DNA of 64,000 nucleotides. Origin: Terriglobus sp. RCC_193 (GTDB lineage: Bacteria > Acidobacteriota > Terriglobia > Terriglobales > Acidobacteriaceae). Within the stretch, counting starts at the first letter, position 1. The number at the start of each line of letters is the position of its first letter. The stretch is taken from contig NZ_JBFUPK010000001.1 in the NCBI RefSeq assembly GCF_041355105.1, forward strand, positions 434,001 through 498,000, written 5' to 3'. The position numbers and the translations under genes are program-made. Of the stretch, positions 54,789 to 64,000 are shown piece after piece. Under the pieces are notes generated by a model, which saw nothing but the letters and a program-made list of their open reading frames with translations, ran no database searches and was not told where the DNA came from.

Positions 54789-55109
54789 CTACGAGTGAAC
54801 GCGACTTCGTAGGTCAAGATCATCCAACACGGAAGGTTTCCTGCGGAAAACGGAATAGGTGTTCTGAAGCCATACCTCAATGAGGGATATGAGCCATGCA
54901 AGCTGGACAATGACCGATATAGCTACCGAGAGAGTTCCTGGTGTCCTAAGAGAAAACACTGCCCAATACATTGACAGTGCTGCAACCCCTAGTAACGTAA
55001 CGAAGATTGACGGTAGATAGAGGAATAAGATCAAAGACCGACCAGAGAGTCGCGGACTGATATGTAGATTGCGCTCGGAAAGCGGATGAAGCACTTTAGT
55101 GGCAGACAT
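54789..55109 (-). CDS. Small two-helix membrane protein
   Basis: A 106-residue protein from MSATKVLHPLSERN with two hydrophobic segments (SLILFLYLPSIFVTLLGVAA and LSVAISVIVQLAWLISLIEV) and a basic, soluble tail. No family was recognised. AGGAG lies 7 nt before the ATG, which supports translation. It stands alone between the sigma-54 activator gene, 125 nt downstream on the same strand, and the divergent CadC-like gene. The layout of a cytoplasmic tail next to two helices recalls small regulators or holin-like proteins, without further support. Confidence 0.5.
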   Translation of the reverse strand: MSATKVLHPLSERNLHISPRLSGRSLILFLYLPSIFVTLLGVAALSMYWAVFSLRTPGTLSVAISVIVQLAWLISLIEVWLQNTYSVFRRKPSVLDDLDLRSRVHS

Positions 55110-55288
55110 AGGAAAACTCCTAAGAGTTAAAAGAAGGGCAGAGCCCTCGCAGCAAAAATTCTTACCGTTGTACTGAATCAACTTCATAGTGCGGGAACTT
55201 CATTAAGCTAATTATTCAGCGGGATGAAGTCCTCAAATGCACGATTGATGTGGATCAAATAACAACGGTTTTTCCCAAGGTCCCTGAT

Positions 55289-57397
55289 ATGAAGCAGATA
55301 GTGCATTTCGGTGAATACACGTTTGAGACTACCCAAATGGTTGTCATGCGCGGGATTGAGATAATTGATATGCCGCAACGGCAGCGAGAGGCACTCGCAT
55401 TGCTGTTAAAGGCCCAGGGAAAGGTGGTATGCCGAGAAGCATTTCTCGATACCGTCTGGAAGGGGGTTATCGTTGAGGAGCATAACCTCACCCAAACGAT
55501 TTTCATGTTGCGAAAAGCTCTTGGTAAGTTGCCGAATGGGCGGGAATATATCGAGACGATCCCCAAGAAGGGTTATCGCATGTCCGTAGGGGCCCTAAAC
55601 CAGGGTAATCTGCGATTCCCTCCGGATTCCGAATGCAGTGATGCTCTTGAACGATTAAGACAGGATCTTGGAGTTAAGGTTCCGAACCAAATGGGGCATC
55701 AGGTAGTGATCGTGAAATCGTCGCTCTTGATTGGTCTAATCGCTCTCTTTGTCTTCGTTGTTGTACCCATTGTTGGGAGTGTTTACAAACAGAGAGAAGA
55801 TCTGAGCGCAGTGACAAAGCTTACTCGGGATGGCTTTACCAAGATAAGCAGAGCTCCTTTGATCCTTCACCAGGGAACACTGCTCTTTACGGAACTCCGT
55901 GGCAAGAAATCCTATCTAGCCTCCGTCCCTGTTGATGGCGGAACCACAACAGCTACTGCGTTGGGTACGGCAATCACATATGTCTCGGGGATCCACTTCG
56001 AACGCCCCGAAGTGTTGGTTTCCAGAGATGACCGCGATGCGCCTATCAGCGCAGCGACGTTGCAGGGAGATCCATCGCAATCCGTAACAGAATTATTTGG
56101 CCGATCGGCTACGTGGTCACCAGATGGTACGAAAATTGTGTATGTTTCCCAGCAGCATGTCATGCTTGCAGATAGTGTTGGGCAGAATGCGTCGGTACTG
56201 GCCGCCACCGCAGGTACTCCCTTCTGGCCATCCTGGTCCCCTGATGGGAAATCAGTCCGATTCTCTGTGCATGAAGCCGATGATCAAGAAAGTCTGTATG
56301 AGGTCAATCTTGCAGACAGGAACGTGACTCCGGTTCTGAAAGGGGATATCCACGAGCATCATGCTTGTTGTGGCTCGTGGAGTGCTAATGGAAAATATTT
56401 TGTCTATGTCGTAGATAGTTCGAGTTCGTCTTCTATCTGGGCTCGCCGGGAGAAGCTATTTCGCTGGAAAATTATGGGTGATCCTTGGGAGATCGCCTCG
56501 GGGCCTGTCGATTTCTGGAGATCACCGACGCTCAGCCCTGATTTGCACCATCTTTATGCGATGGGTGAACAGAGCCGTCTTTACTTGACGATGCTAAGCC
56601 GCGACTTCGAACCATTCCTTCGGGGTGTCTCAGTGTCGTCGATGAGCGTGTCGCACGACGGAGAATGGGTTGCTTATACGTTGCATCCTGAAGGTACGCT
56701 CTGGAAGAGCCGGCTTGATGGAAGTGAACGTGTTCAGCTTTCGACACCGGGCGAATTTGCAAAGTCTCCACAGTGGTCGCCGGATGATCATAGTTTGATC
56801 TATGTGCGAGAGCGAAATGGCGGAAACACAATTGTGCGCGTGAATGCAGTAGATGGTGGTTCACGAGAAGTGGTCGCCGGAATACGTGACGTTCGACAGA
56901 TTGCGTATGCACCGATAGGCGAGAAGATAGCTTTTGAGTCTGGGGCAGGAGCAAACCACCTCGAACGTGCAATTTTCATTATGGAACTTGGTGATCATGG
57001 CATCGAAGTGCTACCAGGGTCTGCGAGATTGTCGTCGGTAAAATGGTCACCGGACGCGCATTATCTGTCCGCTGTAACGAATGATCAATCCAAGCTTAAG
57101 TTGTTTGATGTAACTACTCAGACCTGGCATGACATTTCTTTATCTGGTGCGATCGGTGCGCAGGCGTGGGATCGGAAGAAGAACATTCTCTATTTCATTG
57201 AGGCACAAAATGGCTGCTATGTTTTGATGAAATACCTGGTTGCTAGTGGTAAGGCAGTGGAGATACGGAAGATGCCTGAACGCTACGATGAAGACTATGC
57301 ATCGAGTGTTCTCGATGTAACACCGTCTGGAGAATTGCTGTTCGGCTATTCCGTTGGAGAAAACGAACTCTATGATATTTTGATCGACCTCTCATGA
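55289..57397 (+). CDS. CadC-like winged-helix membrane regulator with TolB/WD40-type beta-propeller
   Basis: A 702-residue one-component sensor. The N-terminal OmpR/PhoB-type winged helix (about residues 1-105) includes VCREAFLDTVWKGVIVEEHN and FMLRKALGKLPNGREYIETI. A single membrane helix (SLLIGLIALFVFVVVPIVGS) follows, then a long periplasmic beta-propeller with TolB-like W-S-P-D-G repeats (ATWSPDGTKIVYVSQ, SWSPDGKSVRFSVHEA, KWSPDAHYLSAVTND). The ATG at 55289 has AAGG 8 nt upstream; an in-frame GTG at 55250 is alternative. It is convergent with the RiPP locus and divergent from the small membrane protein. Such sensors are frequent in acidobacteria; the ligand is unknown. Confidence 0.85.
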   Translation: MKQIVHFGEYTFETTQMVVMRGIEIIDMPQRQREALALLLKAQGKVVCREAFLDTVWKGVIVEEHNLTQTIFMLRKALGKLPNGREYIETIPKKGYRMSVGALNQGNLRFPPDSECSDALERLRQDLGVKVPNQMGHQVVIVKSSLLIGLIALFVFVVVPIVGSVYKQREDLSAVTKLTRDGFTKISRAPLILHQGTLLFTELRGKKSYLASVPVDGGTTTATALGTAITYVSGIHFERPEVLVSRDDRDAPISAATLQGDPSQSVTELFGRSATWSPDGTKIVYVSQQHVMLADSVGQNASVLAATAGTPFWPSWSPDGKSVRFSVHEADDQESLYEVNLADRNVTPVLKGDIHEHHACCGSWSANGKYFVYVVDSSSSSSIWARREKLFRWKIMGDPWEIASGPVDFWRSPTLSPDLHHLYAMGEQSRLYLTMLSRDFEPFLRGVSVSSMSVSHDGEWVAYTLHPEGTLWKSRLDGSERVQLSTPGEFAKSPQWSPDDHSLIYVRERNGGNTIVRVNAVDGGSREVVAGIRDVRQIAYAPIGEKIAFESGAGANHLERAIFIMELGDHGIEVLPGSARLSSVKWSPDAHYLSAVTNDQSKLKLFDVTTQTWHDISLSGAIGAQAWDRKKNILYFIEAQNGCYVLMKYLVASGKAVEIRKMPERYDEDYASSVLDVTPSGELLFGYSVGENELYDILIDLS

Positions 57398-57675
57398 TAG
57401 GAACGAACTGCAGTGAAGCATGTCCCCATGAAACGAGAGAAGTCAGATAGCATCCGTCTCGAGCCGCTACACGAAGTGGTCTGCTCATGAGCCGATGCTT
57501 CCCGTCCGTGTTGTCTCCACGAAGAAGAAAATTGTGGCTATCGATTCGAAGTTAAGCTCGTCATTTCACCGTGGTGACGAATCGGGATGTAAGACGGATG
57601 CGTTCTACATCGAAGAATGTAGAGCGCCCAAAGGCATGAGCATCTTCCGAATGGGACGGCGGATATTGGTTGTAT

Positions 57676-58581
57676 TCACTGGAAAGAGCGTGGCAGGGTC
57701 AGACCGCTGATAATTCCATTCGGGAAAGAGACGGCCTGCACCTCGATATCGCTCAGCAGGCGGTTCACAATTCGTAGCTGCTCTGGTGATGGGGGTGTCA
57801 CGATGCAGGGATCGATCGTGAGATTGCCGAATAACGCGCGCAGTCGGTCAACACCGCTCATCGGTTTGAGCTGTATGCCTGAATCGCGTGGACCGCGCTC
57901 ACCGATCACAAAGATGGCATGCAATGGGGTTTCCGGTAATGCAGGCGCGTTGCACTCCAGTACGAACTTGTTGATCCGCGAATCTTCGGGTGCACCGGGT
58001 ATGGTCCAGCGTCGATGAAGTTGATGAGGATCAAATCCTAAAGTCTGGGCTGTATGCAGCGAAATTTTCAAATGGCAAAAGCCGGTTGGCACCATCCAAT
58101 GATCGCCGTTTTGTTTCACCCGCACCAGATCGTCAGAGAGCAACGTCCATCCTGATTGCATCAGCATGGCAGCAGCAGTGGATTTGCCTGCTTCTTTTGC
58201 TCCAAGCAGAAGAACCGCCCGACCATTGCGCTCGAGTGCTGCGCCATGGAATGAAGTGATATCACGTGCGCGGAATACCGATCGCATGACCGGCTCAGCG
58301 AAGAGCGTTAACAGGTCTTGTTGTGGGAGTGTGGACCGCGAGCGCGAGAAAACACGTTGCCCGTCAGGCGAAATACTGAACTCGCAAATGACTTTGTCAG
58401 GAAATCCGTAGATGTGATGGGCCCAAAGGCAGCCATCGCGTTGGGTGGTGAAATGCGAGGGCCGATCATCATGAGCGATGTCCTCGACGGTCTCGTGCTT
58501 CCAGATAAGATCACCTTCCTCAAAAGGAGAAGGCGATATACAAATCTTTAGACCGTAGAGATTTGGAATGGCTTGATTCAA
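57676..58581 (-). CDS. HprK-like kinase of a lasso-peptide locus
   Basis: A 301-residue protein with an HPr-kinase-like P-loop domain: LLLGAKEAGKSTAAAMLMQS (Walker A, G127-S134) and LLSDDLVRVK with the acidic pair of HprK. Housekeeping HprK with its N-terminal HPr-binding domain is not indicated; relatives in lasso clusters (paeninodin type) phosphorylate the C-terminal Ser of the precursor, and the precursor here ends in Ser. The start is TTG at 58581 with no close Shine-Dalgarno; an inverted repeat CAATCGCT/AGCGATTG (58579-58586, 58612-58619) spans it and could damp its expression relative to the precursor. An AAGGA lies in the loop, 20 nt before the TTG. Last gene of the RiPP operon. Confidence 0.78.
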   Translation of the reverse strand: MNQAIPNLYGLKICISPSPFEEGDLIWKHETVEDIAHDDRPSHFTTQRDGCLWAHHIYGFPDKVICEFSISPDGQRVFSRSRSTLPQQDLLTLFAEPVMRSVFRARDITSFHGAALERNGRAVLLLGAKEAGKSTAAAMLMQSGWTLLSDDLVRVKQNGDHWMVPTGFCHLKISLHTAQTLGFDPHQLHRRWTIPGAPEDSRINKFVLECNAPALPETPLHAIFVIGERGPRDSGIQLKPMSGVDRLRALFGNLTIDPCIVTPPSPEQLRIVNRLLSDIEVQAVSFPNGIISGLTLPRSFQ

Positions 58582-58667
58582 TCGCTAAAGCGCTCTGATT
58601 TCCTTAGAAAAAGCGATTGCCGCTCACTAGAGCAGCAACCTGGAAGTATTAAGATCGGAAATCCCGA

Positions 58668-58796
58668 TTAAGAGGTATAAGAACTTCCGCTGGTATCAAT
58701 CGTGTTGGTTGAGGAGTTGACTGTCTTGGTGATCTGTTGCGCATCACCATAATCGGAGATTGCTGCGGGGATGTATGGTTTTTTACGGATATTCAA
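58668..58796 (-). CDS. Lasso peptide precursor
   Basis: A 42-residue peptide encoded in the gap between the cyclase and HprK-like genes. From the TTG at 58796 it begins MNIRKKPYIPAAISDYGDAQ, continues QITKTVNSSTNTID and ends TSGSSYTS. The leader has the features of lasso precursors: K-K-P-Y-x-P (the Y-x-x-P type motif read by the RRE), then a YGD turn, then I-T before the core. The core has an Asp able to close a macrolactam and a Ser C-terminus that the neighbouring kinase could phosphorylate. AAGAGG lies 9 nt before the TTG. No ATG or GTG exists in frame upstream before a stop. A small hairpin (58654-58668) overlaps the stop codon. Identification rests on motif and context. Confidence 0.75.
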   Translation of the reverse strand: MNIRKKPYIPAAISDYGDAQQITKTVNSSTNTIDTSGSSYTS

Positions 58797-58853
58797 TTCA
58801 GGGAACCTCTTGTAGTTACAGTGCAGTTAGTCTGGCGTGTCATGAAAAGGAAG

Positions 58854-60620
58854 TCAAGCTGATCTGGCGATCCAACGCAGTAAAAGCTCGATTCGGCCCA
58901 ATCCCAGACTCGTTTCGGCTTCTGGTGATGCAATTGATCGTCGAACAACATCCAGATTCACGATGTGCGTGATGGAGGATCCTGTTTCGTCAAGCAGCGC
59001 ACTCCGTCGCTGCTGATGATGTGGGTCAATCTGAAGAAGCACCTTAGTTGATCCAAGTGGAGTCTTCGGCCGTTGTAGAACATCATCGGGTAAAAGTGTC
59101 CGCATCGCCTCTCTAAGAATCCTCTTGTGCCATAGCAGGTCGTCTGGAAGGCATGACGAAAAACGCATCAGGCGAATGTCGAAATACGGATAGGAAACGT
59201 CGAACGAAGCTCCTGTAAGACTGGAAACGCCAAGGCCGAGCAGGTTCGTCCAGAACGGTCCACGCAGTTCGTTCACGTCTGCTGTTCGGGTTGCGAGGTA
59301 CTTGTCAAGCCGGTCTTGCAAGCCGGTGCGCTGAGCGAATGAAGGATGAATCCAAACCGGTAGCAGATGAACTCCGCGCTTTCCGAGTTTCTGCGCCAGG
59401 TAAGGCCGCCAACCAAACGCAGGAATTGTGCCGAGTGTTTTCCAATAGCGAATGCATTGCAGAGGCGTGCGCAGCAAACCCGTGGCTGCAATGCGTTGCA
59501 GATCACAACGTGTCGGGCGAAACTGCGCGTCGCCGCCCTGGCCGGAGAAAAGTGTTCCTCCCTGAGTAGCCATCTCAAGTCCTGGTAACGATGTCGCAAG
59601 AGAGGGGGGCTCGAGTGATGGTTGTGGAGGTCGGACGGCCATGTGCCGTTGGAGGCTTTCTTCAATGGCATCTTCCGATACGAACACCTGATGGCGAATA
59701 CCAAGATGCTTCGTGACCGACGCAGCGTAATGGCCCTCCCGTTCCCGAACGATTCGCGAGACATGGGTGTATGCGGTAACGCGGTCTGCGGCACTCTCTC
59801 GCCCCAGGACATGGCAGATGCATGCGGCAATGGAGGTGGAATCCATACCTCCACTCAGCATCACACCGATTGCTCCAGCAAGTGGGATACGTTCGGCGAC
59901 AACCTGCAGAAGAAGATGGCGAAGTTGTTCCGCGTAGTCTTCGATCCGTGGAAGCAGGAGCAACTCTTCCTGTGCAGGGGGTTGCCAATAAGCAGCGACC
60001 TGAATATGACCATCTTTGTAGATCAATCGCGTTGCAGGCGCCAGCCGTTGGATGCCGCGATAGTATGTCGCTCTCTCATCGATGATGAAGCCAATGGATA
60101 AGAAATCAGCAATGGAGTTCTCGTCCATCGCAATATCGCATAGCTTGCTGTCTCTTAGCACCGGAACTGAATCGCTGAGGAGAAGCCCCTGTGTTGCAGC
60201 TGAGTAGAAAAGTGGACGGATACCAAAGTGATCTGTTGCAGCAAGTGCTATGTGCTGTTCGGAATCCCAAAGTACAAACGCAAATTCACCTTGTACATGG
60301 AGCAACAAGTCTGTGCCCCAACGCCGATAGGCGAGCAGAAGCAGTGCAGCATCCGTCATGGCGGAAGAAGCATTGAGTGTGCGAACCAATTCTTCTCGCG
60401 CGGTCCAGCGGATATTCCCCACGGCGGATACACCGTTTTCGTCGGCGACGAACTCTGGCTCTCGTTCTACAGATGCCGCTGTGCGCAGTACCTGGAAATG
60501 GTTTGCCGTGTTGGAATGCAACACGCTTTTGCCAAAAGAGGCCATCGCAAGAGACAACGACCGGAGCGTCTCTTCATCCGGCTTGGCGTTATTTCTGATG
60601 AGGCTTGCAAAAGCTGACAT
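58854..60620 (-). CDS. Asparagine synthetase-like lasso peptide cyclase
   Basis: A 588-residue enzyme predicted to adenylate the core Asp side chain and close the macrolactam. The C-terminal synthetase domain has the PP-loop VMLSGGMDSTSIAACICHVL. The N-terminal glutaminase-like domain starts MSAFASLIR without the catalytic Cys at position 2, so it cannot use glutamine; this fits lasso cyclases, not true AsnB. FVLWDSEQHIALAATDHFGI, then RPLFYSAATQG, show the degenerate glutaminase fold. It starts 4 nt after the B1 stop. In the operon it follows B1 and precedes the precursor. AsnB function is disfavoured by the missing Cys and by the neighbours. Confidence 0.9.
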   Translation of the reverse strand: MSAFASLIRNNAKPDEETLRSLSLAMASFGKSVLHSNTANHFQVLRTAASVEREPEFVADENGVSAVGNIRWTAREELVRTLNASSAMTDAALLLLAYRRWGTDLLLHVQGEFAFVLWDSEQHIALAATDHFGIRPLFYSAATQGLLLSDSVPVLRDSKLCDIAMDENSIADFLSIGFIIDERATYYRGIQRLAPATRLIYKDGHIQVAAYWQPPAQEELLLLPRIEDYAEQLRHLLLQVVAERIPLAGAIGVMLSGGMDSTSIAACICHVLGRESAADRVTAYTHVSRIVREREGHYAASVTKHLGIRHQVFVSEDAIEESLQRHMAVRPPQPSLEPPSLATSLPGLEMATQGGTLFSGQGGDAQFRPTRCDLQRIAATGLLRTPLQCIRYWKTLGTIPAFGWRPYLAQKLGKRGVHLLPVWIHPSFAQRTGLQDRLDKYLATRTADVNELRGPFWTNLLGLGVSSLTGASFDVSYPYFDIRLMRFSSCLPDDLLWHKRILREAMRTLLPDDVLQRPKTPLGSTKVLLQIDPHHQQRRSALLDETGSSITHIVNLDVVRRSIASPEAETSLGLGRIELLLRWIARSA

Positions 60621-60624
60621 CGTT

Positions 60625-60897
60625 TCAACGCCGCCGGATCAGGTTGCGGCTTTCAAGTCCATTCAGCGTGTTCGCAACATCCTGACGAACCTGTTCTTCC
60701 GGTGCTTCAAACTCTTCCTGGAGTACGGCACAGATCATCTCTTCGGAGTGTGTTTTGGTCTCGATTAACTGCCACATGCGTATTGCGCTGCCGTGCAGGC
60801 CGAAGTATTTCGGATTGGCTTCTCTCATGGAAAGGAGAATGATCTCTTCTCCCACCTGTGTTGAGAGCGTGTCATCTACTGGCTCAAGAATTTTCAT
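60625..60897 (-). CDS. PqqD-like lasso B1 protein (RiPP recognition element)
   Basis: A 90-residue PqqD-fold protein: VGEEIILLSMREANPKYFGL, then GSAIRMWQLIETKTHSEEMI, and a C-terminal helix region (VRQDVANTLNGLESRNLIRR). PqqD-like RREs bind RiPP leaders; in lasso clusters this stand-alone B1 delivers the precursor to the B2 protease and cyclase. The Y-x-P leader found downstream is its likely ligand. It lies 16 nt after B2 and 4 nt before the cyclase gene. Confidence 0.88.
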   Translation of the reverse strand: MKILEPVDDTLSTQVGEEIILLSMREANPKYFGLHGSAIRMWQLIETKTHSEEMICAVLQEEFEAPEEQVRQDVANTLNGLESRNLIRRR

Positions 60898-60913
60898 AGT
60901 TTATTTCGACTCG

Positions 60914-61396
60914 TTAGGTATTCGATGGCTTAGACAACCCCAATTCCTGATAGACAGCGCTGGAGCCTCCGCCAGTGACAACGATGCTTCCGGCAGAGAG
61001 CCATGCGTGGGCTTGTAGCGGATCGCCAGGAAAAGGTGACTTGATTACCCCAAAGTGCAATGTTGTATCCACACTACGCAACCGCAACATCATTCCTGCC
61101 GCAAGGCATTGAGGTACACAGTCGCCCAGCATTGGGTAGTGGATGTTGATGAATGACATGCGGTCTCGCACCGCGTTTACGAAGGGACGGTGGCGATCAT
61201 CGATTCCGCTTGTTGCTTTAAAGCGTAATCCGAGAAACCGGGCAAGCGTGCCAAGCGGGAAGAGCAAGAGCAGACAGCGAAAAGCCAGAATTAAGAACAC
61301 TGGAAGAAGTAATGTCCATTTGTTGCAACGCAGAGGTGGATCCGCCTCAACCCGGTCCTCTGTACTGCAGTCGACGTCTGGGATAGAGCGTGTCAT
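60914..61396 (-). CDS. Lasso peptide biosynthesis B2 protein (leader protease)
   Basis: A 160-residue transglutaminase-like Cys protease that removes the leader. It has a membrane-like hydrophobic stretch at residues 27-56 (LLLPVFLILAFRCLLLLFPL). The catalytic Cys93 is in GDCVPQCLAAGMMLR and the His130 in QAHAWLSAGSIVV; both positions match B2 proteins. The ATG at 61396 overlaps the Nif11-like stop (ATGA), so the two are translationally coupled. The membrane segment suggests the locus works at the inner membrane. Confidence 0.85.
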   Translation of the reverse strand: MTRSIPDVDCSTEDRVEADPPLRCNKWTLLLPVFLILAFRCLLLLFPLGTLARFLGLRFKATSGIDDRHRPFVNAVRDRMSFINIHYPMLGDCVPQCLAAGMMLRLRSVDTTLHFGVIKSPFPGDPLQAHAWLSAGSIVVTGGGSSAVYQELGLSKPSNT

Positions 61397-61596
61397 CGTT
61401 GATCCTGATGATAATGGAGCCACCGTGCAGTCCAATCAAGACGAAATGCTTCTGCCAGTTCCTGTCGTGTAAAGTTGTAGTCACTTGCGGTAGCTGATTC
61501 TGCATCAGCCAGATCGTTACAGGGTAACGAAGCAGTGCGAAGCGATTCATCGGTTCGGCATGTTCGAATGAATTGCAAAGCGCTGGCCAGGCTCAC
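61393..61596 (-). CDS. Nif11-domain small protein
   Basis: A 67-residue protein from a GTG start, MSLASALQFIRTCRTDESLR, then NFTRQELAEAF in the second half. This follows the Nif11 pattern (M-S-x-x-x-x-x-F-x-x-x-x-x-x-D-x-x-L and a F-T-x-x-E-L near residue 42). Nif11-type leaders normally precede a Gly-Gly site and a core; none is visible, as the C-terminus is WLHYHQDQR. The GTG overlaps the stop of the upstream gene (GTGA) and its own stop overlaps the B2 start (ATGA). AGGGG lies about 8 nt before the GTG. It may be a substrate, a regulator, or a remnant. Confidence 0.65.
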   Translation of the reverse strand: MSLASALQFIRTCRTDESLRTASLPCNDLADAESATASDYNFTRQELAEAFRLDWTARWLHYHQDQR

Positions 61597-63878
61597 AGGC
61601 TGTTCCCCTGTTGTTGCAATGCACGTTGCGCTATCGCCAGTGCGGATACCACGGCCGCAGTCGTAAAGTTGCCGCGATAGTCCAGGTGAACCCTCTCGTT
61701 CCCATTACAGACAATGGTTGATGGCAATGGAATCCGCATACGCGCTGCGGGCAGCCATCCATCTTCTATCTGAAGGTGGAGCAAAAGCTCTATTGCGAAA
61801 TGTATTTGCTGTGAATGGTGGTGGAGGTCGGCGGCACAAAGTGCCTTGAGGCAGAACGCGAGATCAAACGCATTCCTCTCTTTACTGTTGCCGATCTCAA
61901 GTATGGAAGCGGCAGCCCATCGTTGTGCTGCACTTACGATATCGGCATATTCACTTCTACCTGCCAGGGCAGATACAGCCATAGCGGTTGGATAGGCATC
62001 GCCATGCCACCAATAGCCTGACCAGTGGCCATTACGCTGCAGACGGCGAAGAAATACGAGTGAAGTGTCGGGAAGGAGTGGGGCTGCGGCTGCCGTGACG
62101 CATATGTGGGTTTGCTCCCAACCGCCAAACGATTCGTCCACTGCCATGCCCATTCGCGTGGAGAGTTGCACATGATCTGCATATGTGCGGACGCCGCCAT
62201 TCTCAGAGGTATGACGTCGAAGAAAATTCATTCCATTCTTGAACGCTTCGCTATGCTCGAGATGGAGACGTTTCAATAAGTGCAGCACCCATGCCGTGCT
62301 ATCTGCATCTGGTGCCTGATGAATCCAATATCCCCACCCGCCATCGCTTCGCTGCGTTCGCAGCAGAGCTGCAGCGCATTCTTCTGCAGCATCGCGCACA
62401 GAAGGGAAGTCTGTATCCAGAAGATGGAAGGCAATGAATGCGCTCACCCACTCATCACTGAGTGACGGCGTTTTAAAGTCGCGCCACAAACCGCTTTGCG
62501 GCTGACACCGAAGCAGCCGATGTGTGCCAGCTTCGATCGCATCTGAAATGCCATGCGGGGTTTGTTCGTCGCGAAGCGTTGTTTTGCGAGGGGGGCCGCT
62601 GGGTGCCTTCCATGAACGCGTTGCTGCCGGTGCGATCCATTCATGCGAGGCGCCAAGGTAAGCCTTTGCTTCCCATTGTCCCCCTGGTTCGCCGCTGAGC
62701 TTCAGATGATAGAGCTTGCGCACGAAAGCGGAGAAGTGGTCTTCGGGCTGCGCAGTCGATTGTGCAATCAGATCCAATGGCCACGGTGTTTCTGTGCTGA
62801 TTGGCAAAGTCTCTCCAGGCAGCGCCATCAACGCATGCAGCTTTGCAGTGCTACACAGATTGTCCTCGCAGAGTTCGCTGAGTGTCTGTTCCCATAGAGG
62901 GTCGGCATCTGGCTGTTCATCGAAGAAACATTCCATGCCAATGCGCGGAAGAACTTGAACTGTATCGCTCTGAGGCTTCAGGTCCAAAGCCAGGGTCACC
63001 CGATCAGCGTTGGTCAGTGATGCGGTAAATTGTTCGGCCGCTGCACGGCAATTACCGGAATAGCCGATGCCGGCAAGATAGCATTCCACGGTGGATGGAA
63101 GAAGTCGTTTCACGTTGATCCGCACGAAATCGCCAGTGCGTCCAAGCATGAGTCCCAGACCGGAGACGAACTCCCCGTTCTTACATGTTCCTATGCAGTG
63201 ATCTACTGCAGTTTGCAAATTGGACGAGGCCTGTCCTGAGAGAAGATTGATAGCTCGCGCTGCAACTTCACGTGCGGTAGCCGGATCATCCGGTAAGGAA
63301 AGAAATATTGAGGGAAAGGATGGCTCGCGACCGAAGGGCAGATCGAATTCAAGAAAAATTTCGTCAACATGGCGCGATAGAACACTGCTGACGTCTGAGA
63401 GTTCGTTGGCAAAGTGTTCGAGGCCATCTACTCCTGAGAGCGCTGGCGATGAGAGATAGTGCGCCAATTGCGGATAGACGCCATCGTTACGTCGAAATTG
63501 CTGCTGCAGGTCGACCTGCGTTTCTCCGTCCCGCAGGCGAAACTCCAAGGCAATCCTCGGGACTGGAGGGAGTGTTTCGGACAGGGAAGAGATCGTACGC
63601 AGCGAATGAGGCGAGATGAGTGCTGATTCCGTGTCGGGTAACAGGAATGGGCAATAATCCGCCAGAGACAATGGAACATGCCAATGGTTCGCGTTGTGCG
63701 GTACAGCCATACCACCCGATGACATTCGTTGAAACGATGTGAGCTTCATTGGCGATATCCGATTTCGGTTAGCCAAGCGAAGCGCCTGCGTTGTACATTT
63801 TGCCGCGATGAAACAGAATTGGCCAGCGAGAAGCAGATAGAAAATTGTTGATGGAGAGGAGTAGCAGTGAGAAGCCAC
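61593..63878 (-). CDS. Two-domain protein: unknown N-terminal domain and squalene-cyclase-like repeats
   Basis: Up to 761 residues, from a GTG at 63878 with AAGGA 10 nt upstream; an ATG at 63749 is alternative. Numbering is from the GTG. A hydrophobic stretch lies at residues 11-28. Residues ~105-415 form an N-terminal domain with GLGLMLGRTGDFVRIN, VLPRIGMECFFDE and QWEAKAYLGASHEW; I recall similar uncharacterised proteins beside RiPP genes. Residues ~445-761 hold prenyltransferase/squalene-oxidase repeats (QRSDGGWGYW 509-518, GGWEQTHICVT, RNGHWSGYWWHGDAYPT). The class II terpene-cyclase DXDD is DADS (524-527), so canonical protonation chemistry is doubtful, and only one barrel fits. It is first in the RiPP operon within the window. 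Confidence 0.7.
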   Translation of the reverse strand: MASHCYSSPSTIFYLLLAGQFCFIAAKCTTQALRLANRNRISPMKLTSFQRMSSGGMAVPHNANHWHVPLSLADYCPFLLPDTESALISPHSLRTISSLSETLPPVPRIALEFRLRDGETQVDLQQQFRRNDGVYPQLAHYLSSPALSGVDGLEHFANELSDVSSVLSRHVDEIFLEFDLPFGREPSFPSIFLSLPDDPATAREVAARAINLLSGQASSNLQTAVDHCIGTCKNGEFVSGLGLMLGRTGDFVRINVKRLLPSTVECYLAGIGYSGNCRAAAEQFTASLTNADRVTLALDLKPQSDTVQVLPRIGMECFFDEQPDADPLWEQTLSELCEDNLCSTAKLHALMALPGETLPISTETPWPLDLIAQSTAQPEDHFSAFVRKLYHLKLSGEPGGQWEAKAYLGASHEWIAPAATRSWKAPSGPPRKTTLRDEQTPHGISDAIEAGTHRLLRCQPQSGLWRDFKTPSLSDEWVSAFIAFHLLDTDFPSVRDAAEECAAALLRTQRSDGGWGYWIHQAPDADSTAWVLHLLKRLHLEHSEAFKNGMNFLRRHTSENGGVRTYADHVQLSTRMGMAVDESFGGWEQTHICVTAAAAPLLPDTSLVFLRRLQRNGHWSGYWWHGDAYPTAMAVSALAGRSEYADIVSAAQRWAAASILEIGNSKERNAFDLAFCLKALCAADLHHHSQQIHFAIELLLHLQIEDGWLPAARMRIPLPSTIVCNGNERVHLDYRGNFTTAAVVSALAIAQRALQQQGNSL

Positions 63879-64000
63879 AGCGTCTCATTCCTTGCCGAGT
63901 CGTTTGGATTACCGCCGTTTATGCCGCTAAATCGACGTATTTCTTAGGTCAGTGGCGAGAACGACGCGCCTCTACCGCGACAGAACAAAGAGAAGTGTAC

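Follow-up and report, generated by a model that had tools for sequence, protein, structure and literature searches.

A lasso-type gene cluster of Terriglobus sp. RCC_193 with a probable small TTG-start precursor gene, a predicted ten-residue ring and a candidate terpene-modifying enzyme

In the genome of Terriglobus sp. RCC_193 (NCBI RefSeq assembly GCF_041355105.1), a 42-codon open reading frame (ORF) with a TTG start, here called A (58668..58796, minus strand), very probably encodes the precursor of a lasso-type cluster whose genes are transcribed from the minus strand in the order T-N11-B2-B1-C-A-K. Positions are those of the window, by which we mean the whole 64-kb stretch that was analyzed (contig NZ_JBFUPK010000001.1, positions 434,001 to 498,000). 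The product of A is a 42-aa peptide, MNIRKKPYIPAAISDYGDAQQITKTVNSSTNTIDTSGSSYTS, and its gene is tiny and easily overlooked. An earlier reading of the letters alone (hereafter, the sequence-only reading) had picked out this frame; it is present on the minus strand in the ORF list, and the coordinates and profile matches bore out its placement between an Asn-synthetase-like cyclase gene and an HprK-like gene, with B2 and B1 nearby. When the border is set by the leader Thr at position −2, the leader would comprise residues 1–24 (58725-58796) and the predicted core, TVNSSTNTIDTSGSSYTS, would be encoded at 58671-58724, followed by the stop codon (58668-58670), all on the minus strand. A Shine-Dalgarno-like AAGAGG (58806..58811, minus strand) was seen by direct inspection 9 nt 5′ of the TTG. 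As an overall explanation of the locus, we lean towards a lasso-type RiPP cluster with a D10 ring and a terpene-decorated core; the ring, the threading and every chemical step are put forward here as predictions.

The enzyme genes, all on the minus strand, were assigned from profile matches. B2 (60914..61435, 173 aa) is a lasso leader peptidase (NF033537, 65.4 bits against a cut-off of 33; PF13471, 55.3 bits against 26), and B1 (60625..60897, 90 aa) is a PqqD-like leader-binding protein (PF05402, 54.9 bits against 23.4) that also matched lasso-specific NCBIfam models at scores below their cut-offs. C (58854..60620, 588 aa) is probably an Asn-synthetase-like macrolactam synthetase (PF00733, 86.2 bits against 21), the top NCBIfam match of which was the lasso cyclase model NF033535 (186.6 bits, below the cut-off of 525). 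Frame A is separated by 57 nt from the end of C and by 86 nt from the start of K (57676..58581, 301 aa), a putative HprK-like kinase with sub-threshold matches to Hpr_kinase_C (30.4 bits against 33.3) and HprK_rel_A (39.3 bits against 200). K contains a P-loop, GAKEAGKST, and an SDD motif, as read by eye against the motif list in the accessible part of PMC10368454. The cluster opens with T (61593..63878, at most 761 aa from a putative start), a gene that the sequence-only reading does not mention and in which a prenyltransferase-like domain and an MstE-like class II terpene cyclase form one frame. It is followed by N11 (61393..61596, 67 aa), a small, weakly Nif11-like frame (profile E 0.004 and 0.011, below cut-offs) that shares 4 nt with the end of T. 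Beyond K lies a divergent gene (55250-57397) that appears to encode a CadC-type regulator with PD40 repeats (a CadC/TolB-like fusion). The same genome carries a second B2 and K locus (G000:C1:1532661-1533029, L011) with no cyclase in the fetched stretch, and further genomes of the genus likewise have stretches that contain B2, B1 and K but no cyclase (L046, L052, L054, L057 and L059).

The case for A as a precursor was evaluated with profiles from which the window frame had been held out. A leader model built from 48 homologues ranked A first among the 1,792 six-frame ORFs of the 64-kb window. The leader-only score was weak (8.5 bits, E 0.18 for the window): 7 of 40 Markov resamples of the window contained an ORF that reached this score, and in a leave-one-out comparison the A leader was the lowest of 49, the next-lowest reaching 13.0 bits. 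When ten core positions were added to the leader model, again without the window frame, A scored 15.2 bits (E 0.0013) and was the top ORF of the window, followed by a runner-up at 7.6 bits (E 0.31); no other ORF in 55000-64000 exceeded 3.0 bits with this model. The gap between C and K holds four sense-strand ORFs of 20 aa or more, and by a scaled estimate the chance of such a score there is about 4e-4 for the leader alone and about 3e-6 for leader and core. Because of the leader-plus-core E value of 0.0013 together with the location between C and K, we regard A as a likely precursor, and we hold with high confidence that it is a genuine one. The profiles used in gathering the homologues had contained the window frame as one of seven and one of 13 rows, which introduces a mild bias in its favor.

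The features that the sequence-only reading had named, namely a KKPYxP stretch, YGD, IT, a core Asp and a terminal Ser, were every one found in the product. Its leader motif needs qualifying, as the stretch is present but reads Y-I-P-A, with the proline one residue earlier than in the usual YxxP; because of this displaced proline, a YxxP regular-expression search missed the window frame, and profiles were used instead. In the proposed search with lasso-precursor models, the frame had no NCBIfam or Pfam match at E ≤ 1; among 11 relatives tested against curated lasso precursor models, five pass (L222, L068, L225, L228 and L233). No other precursor-like ORF was found at the locus. Conservation at syntenic loci was found in part: similar frames occupy the corresponding position in distant loci across the phylum, but a search for C in the genome-contig collection and in the genomes of the genus returned no close syntenic relative. 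Within the genus, 7 of 19 genomes, the window genome included, matched C at E ≤ 1e-20, and the matches outside the window genome were local, with 31–33% identity.

Related precursors number 51 in 47 loci of the same phylum, with the window included. They were gathered by searching 300 genomes of the family with B2 (88 had a match, and most of the matching stretches were fetched), and then by applying window-protein profiles followed by the seven-row leader profile, which yielded precursors that neighbor K, C, B1 or B2. A 13-precursor profile was then run on 398 family genomes (107 matches at E ≤ 1, mostly weak) and on 396 phylum genomes (24 matches at E ≤ 0.001). Of 53 candidates at 12 bits or more, L122 and L145 were removed as belonging to another family or spurious, and L245 (11 bits) was left out of the counts; the registers of L253 and of one L249 row were placed by hand. 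In 25 of the 36 precursor loci with C, the precursor gene follows C directly on its 3′ side (same strand, at most 700 nt away), and the order C-A-K occurs in 15 of the 28 with both C and K; therefore, a position after the cyclase, which had been taken for a departure from the common order, is common in this group. Soil-metagenome lasso clusters already show C followed by A, according to the sections consulted of PMC9064862. These order counts and the core statistics below hold for loci with a recognized leader; another 21 loci with C or K yielded no recognizable precursor, and a loose regular expression gave nothing convincing there.

The C-terminal half of T (61593..62600) matched MstE both by profile (E 1.9e-46) and as a single sequence (phmmer against the PDB, E 1.3e-31), and its DADST motif, which presumably holds the catalytic Asp, aligns opposite the DADTT of MstE. 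MstE is a single-domain protein, in contrast to the two-domain T, and the titles of its PDB entries name prenylated dihydroxybenzoate ligands and merosterolic acid A as bound molecules. The N-terminal half of T had no sequence-level match to a known family. An AlphaFold2 model of this part (331 aa as modeled, 62604..63596), built from four sequences, reached a mean pLDDT of 80.1 and a pTM of 0.82, and all 44 of its PDB matches at E ≤ 0.001 were prenyltransferases (TM-score on the query 0.37–0.56), as judged from the entry titles or, for AnaPT and CdpNPT, from the names; they include DMATS1 with L-Tyr, LimF and KgpF. For an earlier model of T from two sequences (pLDDT 41.8), the top Foldseek match was MstE, in line with the sequence search. 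Taken together, the fold model and the alignments suggest that T is a fusion of an ABBA-type prenyltransferase fold with a class II terpene cyclase of the MstE type. A prenyltransferase–terpene cyclase fusion of RiPP biosynthesis, NctPC, has reportedly been described by Hubrich et al. 2024. A stand-alone homologue of the prenyltransferase half is encoded elsewhere (L014:6814-8160), in a class II lanthipeptide cluster where its neighbors include a LanM-like protein and a leader peptide of the nitrile-hydratase type. L013 was considered as a relative of this half and rejected, as the cyclase half alone aligned; its N-terminus gave a weak Pfam Trp_DMAT match, below the cut-off. No T relative was confirmed in the genome-contig collection, and nine fetched stretches around cyclase-half relatives in other genomes (L267-L275) contained no lasso gene detectable by profiles.

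Apart from the window genome, a full-length T was found in 1 of 299 and in 1 of 289 genomes, G095 both times, and T lies inside the lasso cluster in both the window and G095. Among the 51 precursors, a Tyr falls within the last four core residues in three, those of the window, L012 (genome G095) and L222 (genome G307); in the window core, Y16 is the only aromatic residue and there is no Trp. After its Tyr had been noticed, G307 was searched for T along with six other precursor genomes, and was the only one of the seven with a full-length T (E 6e-78). G726 gave a partial match to the prenyltransferase half (4.6e-15) elsewhere in its genome and has a D10 core without Tyr, and G001 gave a weak match to the cyclase half (1.7e-6). 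In G307, contig C86 carries T in one line with K and a cyclase running to the end of the stretch, which was taken as the contig end. Contig C185 carries the precursor, B1 and a cyclase frame of 214 aa that ends 64 nt short of the contig end, and contig C122 has another, complete cyclase. The link between T and the Tyr comprises three genomes, one of which (G307) was predicted, with the G307 precursor and T on different contigs. That T acts on the core of A is possible, and we put its probability slightly short of even. Next to T in G307, the frame L281:341-1765 has a heme motif, seen by eye, which we take to be P450-like; it may serve further oxidation of a terpene.

T and N11 could instead form an independent pathway that acts on the N11 tail or on a small molecule and lies beside the lasso genes by accident, an explanation that we consider rather unlikely. 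In its favor, the two genes overlap by 4 nt in two genomes, and two known enzymes can be cited: NctPC, an ABBA prenyltransferase fused to an MstE-like cyclase, attaches geranylgeranyl to Trp and then cyclizes it (PMC13290415, excerpts), and MppC, a peptide prenyltransferase, depends on a Nif11-like leader in its substrate and prefers a macrocycle (PMC12715784, excerpts). The architecture of T is that of NctPC as far as the descriptions of the latter go, yet NctPC acts on Trp, while the window core offers Tyr only and the partner genes in the window are lasso genes. The counterpart of N11 in L012 (29% identity, E 0.002) matched the Nif11 model at E 0.072 and had no Pfam match. The tail of the window N11 contains two Trp and one Tyr, but that of the L012 counterpart has neither residue, which speaks against such a pathway. 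Moreover, a full-length T stands among lasso genes in all three genomes that have one, and by eye no N11 was recognized beside T in G307. N11 was also considered as the main precursor of the cluster and rejected, since its tail is not conserved.

The site of cleavage, and with it the ring size, was read from the alignment of the leaders. A Thr stands six residues past the leader Gly in 46 of the 51 rows (in two of them after the register was set by hand), and the other five rows have Ala, Ile, Val, Val and Ser at this −2 position. Window T23 aligns with this Thr, and in the conserved register the core begins with Thr1 and has its first acid at D10, with none at positions 7–9; the core Asp of the sequence-only reading is thus present, but outside the 7–9 range. 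For the 40 cyclase-linked precursors, the first acid from core position 7 onward falls at position 8 in 19, at 9 in 11, at 10 in five, at 7 in two, and at 11 and 14 in one each, with one precursor having none. The five D10 cores begin TVNSSTNTID (window), AGSSGNTTGD (L012), SGSNTNPTTD (L222), AGGMTSRNSD (L228) and TLNSLMGNAD (L237), so that position 1 is A, A, S, T or T in this class. Eight cyclase-linked precursors lack an acid at positions 7–9, and five of these have one at exactly position 10, an excess over the background of 19/549 (binomial 2.5e-6, with related rows counted as independent). A cut one residue later would give V1 in the window and L1 in L237, first residues absent from the other cyclase-linked rows. 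Thr1 itself is outside the first residues observed so far, listed as Gly, Cys, Ser, Ala and Asn in the portion available of PMC12670498. The simplest reading of the alignment is a predicted ring of ten residues, T1–D10, and, given a genuine precursor, we judge closure through D10 a little better than an even bet. A review gives 7 to 9 residues as the range of lasso rings and mentions one of ten residues that a lasso cyclase system produced in vitro (PMC8498205, in part); a change of ring size by one residue reportedly lowers lasso production significantly, which speaks against the ten-residue reading (PMC13352647, in part). A natural ten-residue ring, if true, would widen this known range of lasso cyclases.

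Alternatively, the cut may fall two residues later, with T25 as the penultimate leader residue, so that N27–D34 would form a standard eight-residue ring with Asn1, as in metanodin. Both TV|N in the window and TL|N in L237 fit a Thr at −2, Asn1 also occurs in L241 and L248, and metanodin combines Asn1 with a Thr at −2, with MS support according to the extract of PMC12670498. This cut would, however, make the leader two residues longer than in the aligned rows, and the same shift fails for L012 and L228, where it would place Ala at −2, and for L222, where it would place Ser; we regard a ring of the standard size as unlikely.

The ten-residue reading was set against the phylogeny of the cyclases. 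In a maximum-likelihood tree of 45 cyclases (L222, with a cyclase frame below 500 aa, was left out), window C groups with cyclases of other lasso-type loci and falls within a nine-row clade with support of 100/99. The 11 precursors of this clade are all D9 or D10 and none has Gly1; outside it, D9 or D10 occurs in 4 of 28 and a non-Gly first residue in 9 of 28 (Fisher 8e-7 and 1.5e-4, respectively, with related rows counted as independent). L012 has D10 but lies outside the clade. The window cyclase forms a long branch with at most 26% identity to any other row, and the tree program warns of possible misplacement. The phylum-wide set ties ring position to cyclase phylogeny, which makes control of ring size by the cyclase testable.

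Whether the product is threaded we consider evenly balanced. C may join the ends of an unthreaded peptide, or the terpene may be the primary modification and the ring a secondary one. The tails past D10 are short in part of the class (eight residues in the window, six in L012 and four in L222, compared with ten in L228 and 14 in L237), and the cyclase-linked L234 and L250 have no acid at positions 7–11, in agreement with such a product; however, B1, B2 and C are all present and the cyclases of the clade serve D9 or D10 precursors, and an unthreaded or otherwise modified peptide appears improbable to us. That A is a decayed precursor or a chance ORF in a degenerating cluster is very improbable, since, despite the lowest and individually weak leader score, the enzyme genes are open, leader and core together reach E 0.0013, a Shine-Dalgarno-like site precedes the start and the frame occupies the usual place between C and K.

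For the lasso-type cluster with a D10 ring, we propose the following steps, in no fixed order. B1 would bind the leader and bring A to B2 and perhaps to K. B2 would cut past K24, with T23 at −2, to release the 18-residue core TVNSSTNTIDTSGSSYTS, and C would close the ring between the T1 amino group and the D10 side chain, which makes ten ring residues and leaves eight for the tail. A hydroxyl residue would be phosphorylated by K, with S18 the simplest choice by analogy with paeninodin. T would prenylate Y16 and then cyclize the chain, as NctPC does on tryptophan, and N11 may help T to find its substrate.

In the portions consulted of PMC9266682, PMC8498205 and PMC10368454, the paeninodin (PadeK) and Bradymonas bsf (BsfK) systems share with the window a split B1/B2, an Asn-synthetase-like C and an HprK-like K, as well as a conserved leader motif and a Thr at −2 (Ile in BsfA). 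PadeK (PMC9266682) and BsfK (PMC10368454) act on the precursor, BsfK on Ser3, in the same portions of text. Paeninodin, as partly seen, also shares the C-terminal Ser; the terminal Ser noted by the sequence-only reading does stand in A, but it is kept in 7 of 36 cores of the window group and is no group trait. Relative to both systems, as far as these portions describe them, the window differs in having the precursor gene between C and K, Thr1, D10 and the additional T and N11. The soil-metagenome clusters of PMC9064862, which have acidobacterial best matches, resemble the window in the split B1/B2 and in C followed by A; in the part of that account consulted, the kinase-bearing cluster has a kinase of the aminoglycoside phosphotransferase family, and no terpene gene is mentioned in the clusters as described. 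Metanodin resembles the window in an A gene without antiSMASH annotation and in a first core residue outside Gly, Cys, Ser and Ala, and differs in the residue at position 1 and, in the conserved register, in ring size; the extract of PMC12670498 describes no prenyltransferase or terpene cyclase for it.

Kinase-type lasso clusters, the C-before-A order, an Asn1 lasso, a ten-residue ring in vitro and terpene-bearing RiPPs are each already on record, and lasso peptide prenylation has been reported (PMC12715784, excerpts). In the open-licence literature, we found no report that joins lasso genes with a prenyltransferase–terpene cyclase, and none of a natural ten-residue ring. We tentatively suggest, while thinking it distinctly short of probable, that the clusters represent a natural terpene–lasso hybrid, a lasso-type family with a ten-residue ring that begins with a residue other than Gly and, in at least three genomes, a cyclized terpene placed by T on a Tyr close to the end of the tail. 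A cyclized terpene on a lasso peptide, if true, would unite two modes of RiPP modification, and the combination would be new if confirmed.

Several further arrangements were seen among the collected loci. In L228:4596-6944, cyclase and precursor lie in one stop-free 782-aa frame, possibly a fusion or overlapping genes. In L113:6554-7045, L131:3453-3917, L236:7013-7975 and L243:1979-2401, the core (G1...D8) is part of a larger protein and continues into a C-terminal follower domain that opens CW(V/I)AEA(V/I/L)YG and, in frames seen in full, is about 80 aa long. In L079, L107, L114, L128, L224 and L254, K is immediately preceded by a precursor-like leader, and the fetched stretch has no cyclase; B1 and B2 lie farther along in five of the six, and the cores of this set contain GFPEPE or NPDEL, unlike lasso cores. 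A second group of precursors near C (L083, L074, L076, L111, L120, L137 and others) has YxKP leaders in which no Thr at −2 was apparent by eye, and its cores have acidic C-termini such as AYEADE and AYDLDE. The L234 core contains no acid although C, B2, B1 and K are present, and it is one of five cores that end in Cys-Leu, together with those of L223, L229, L246 and L253.
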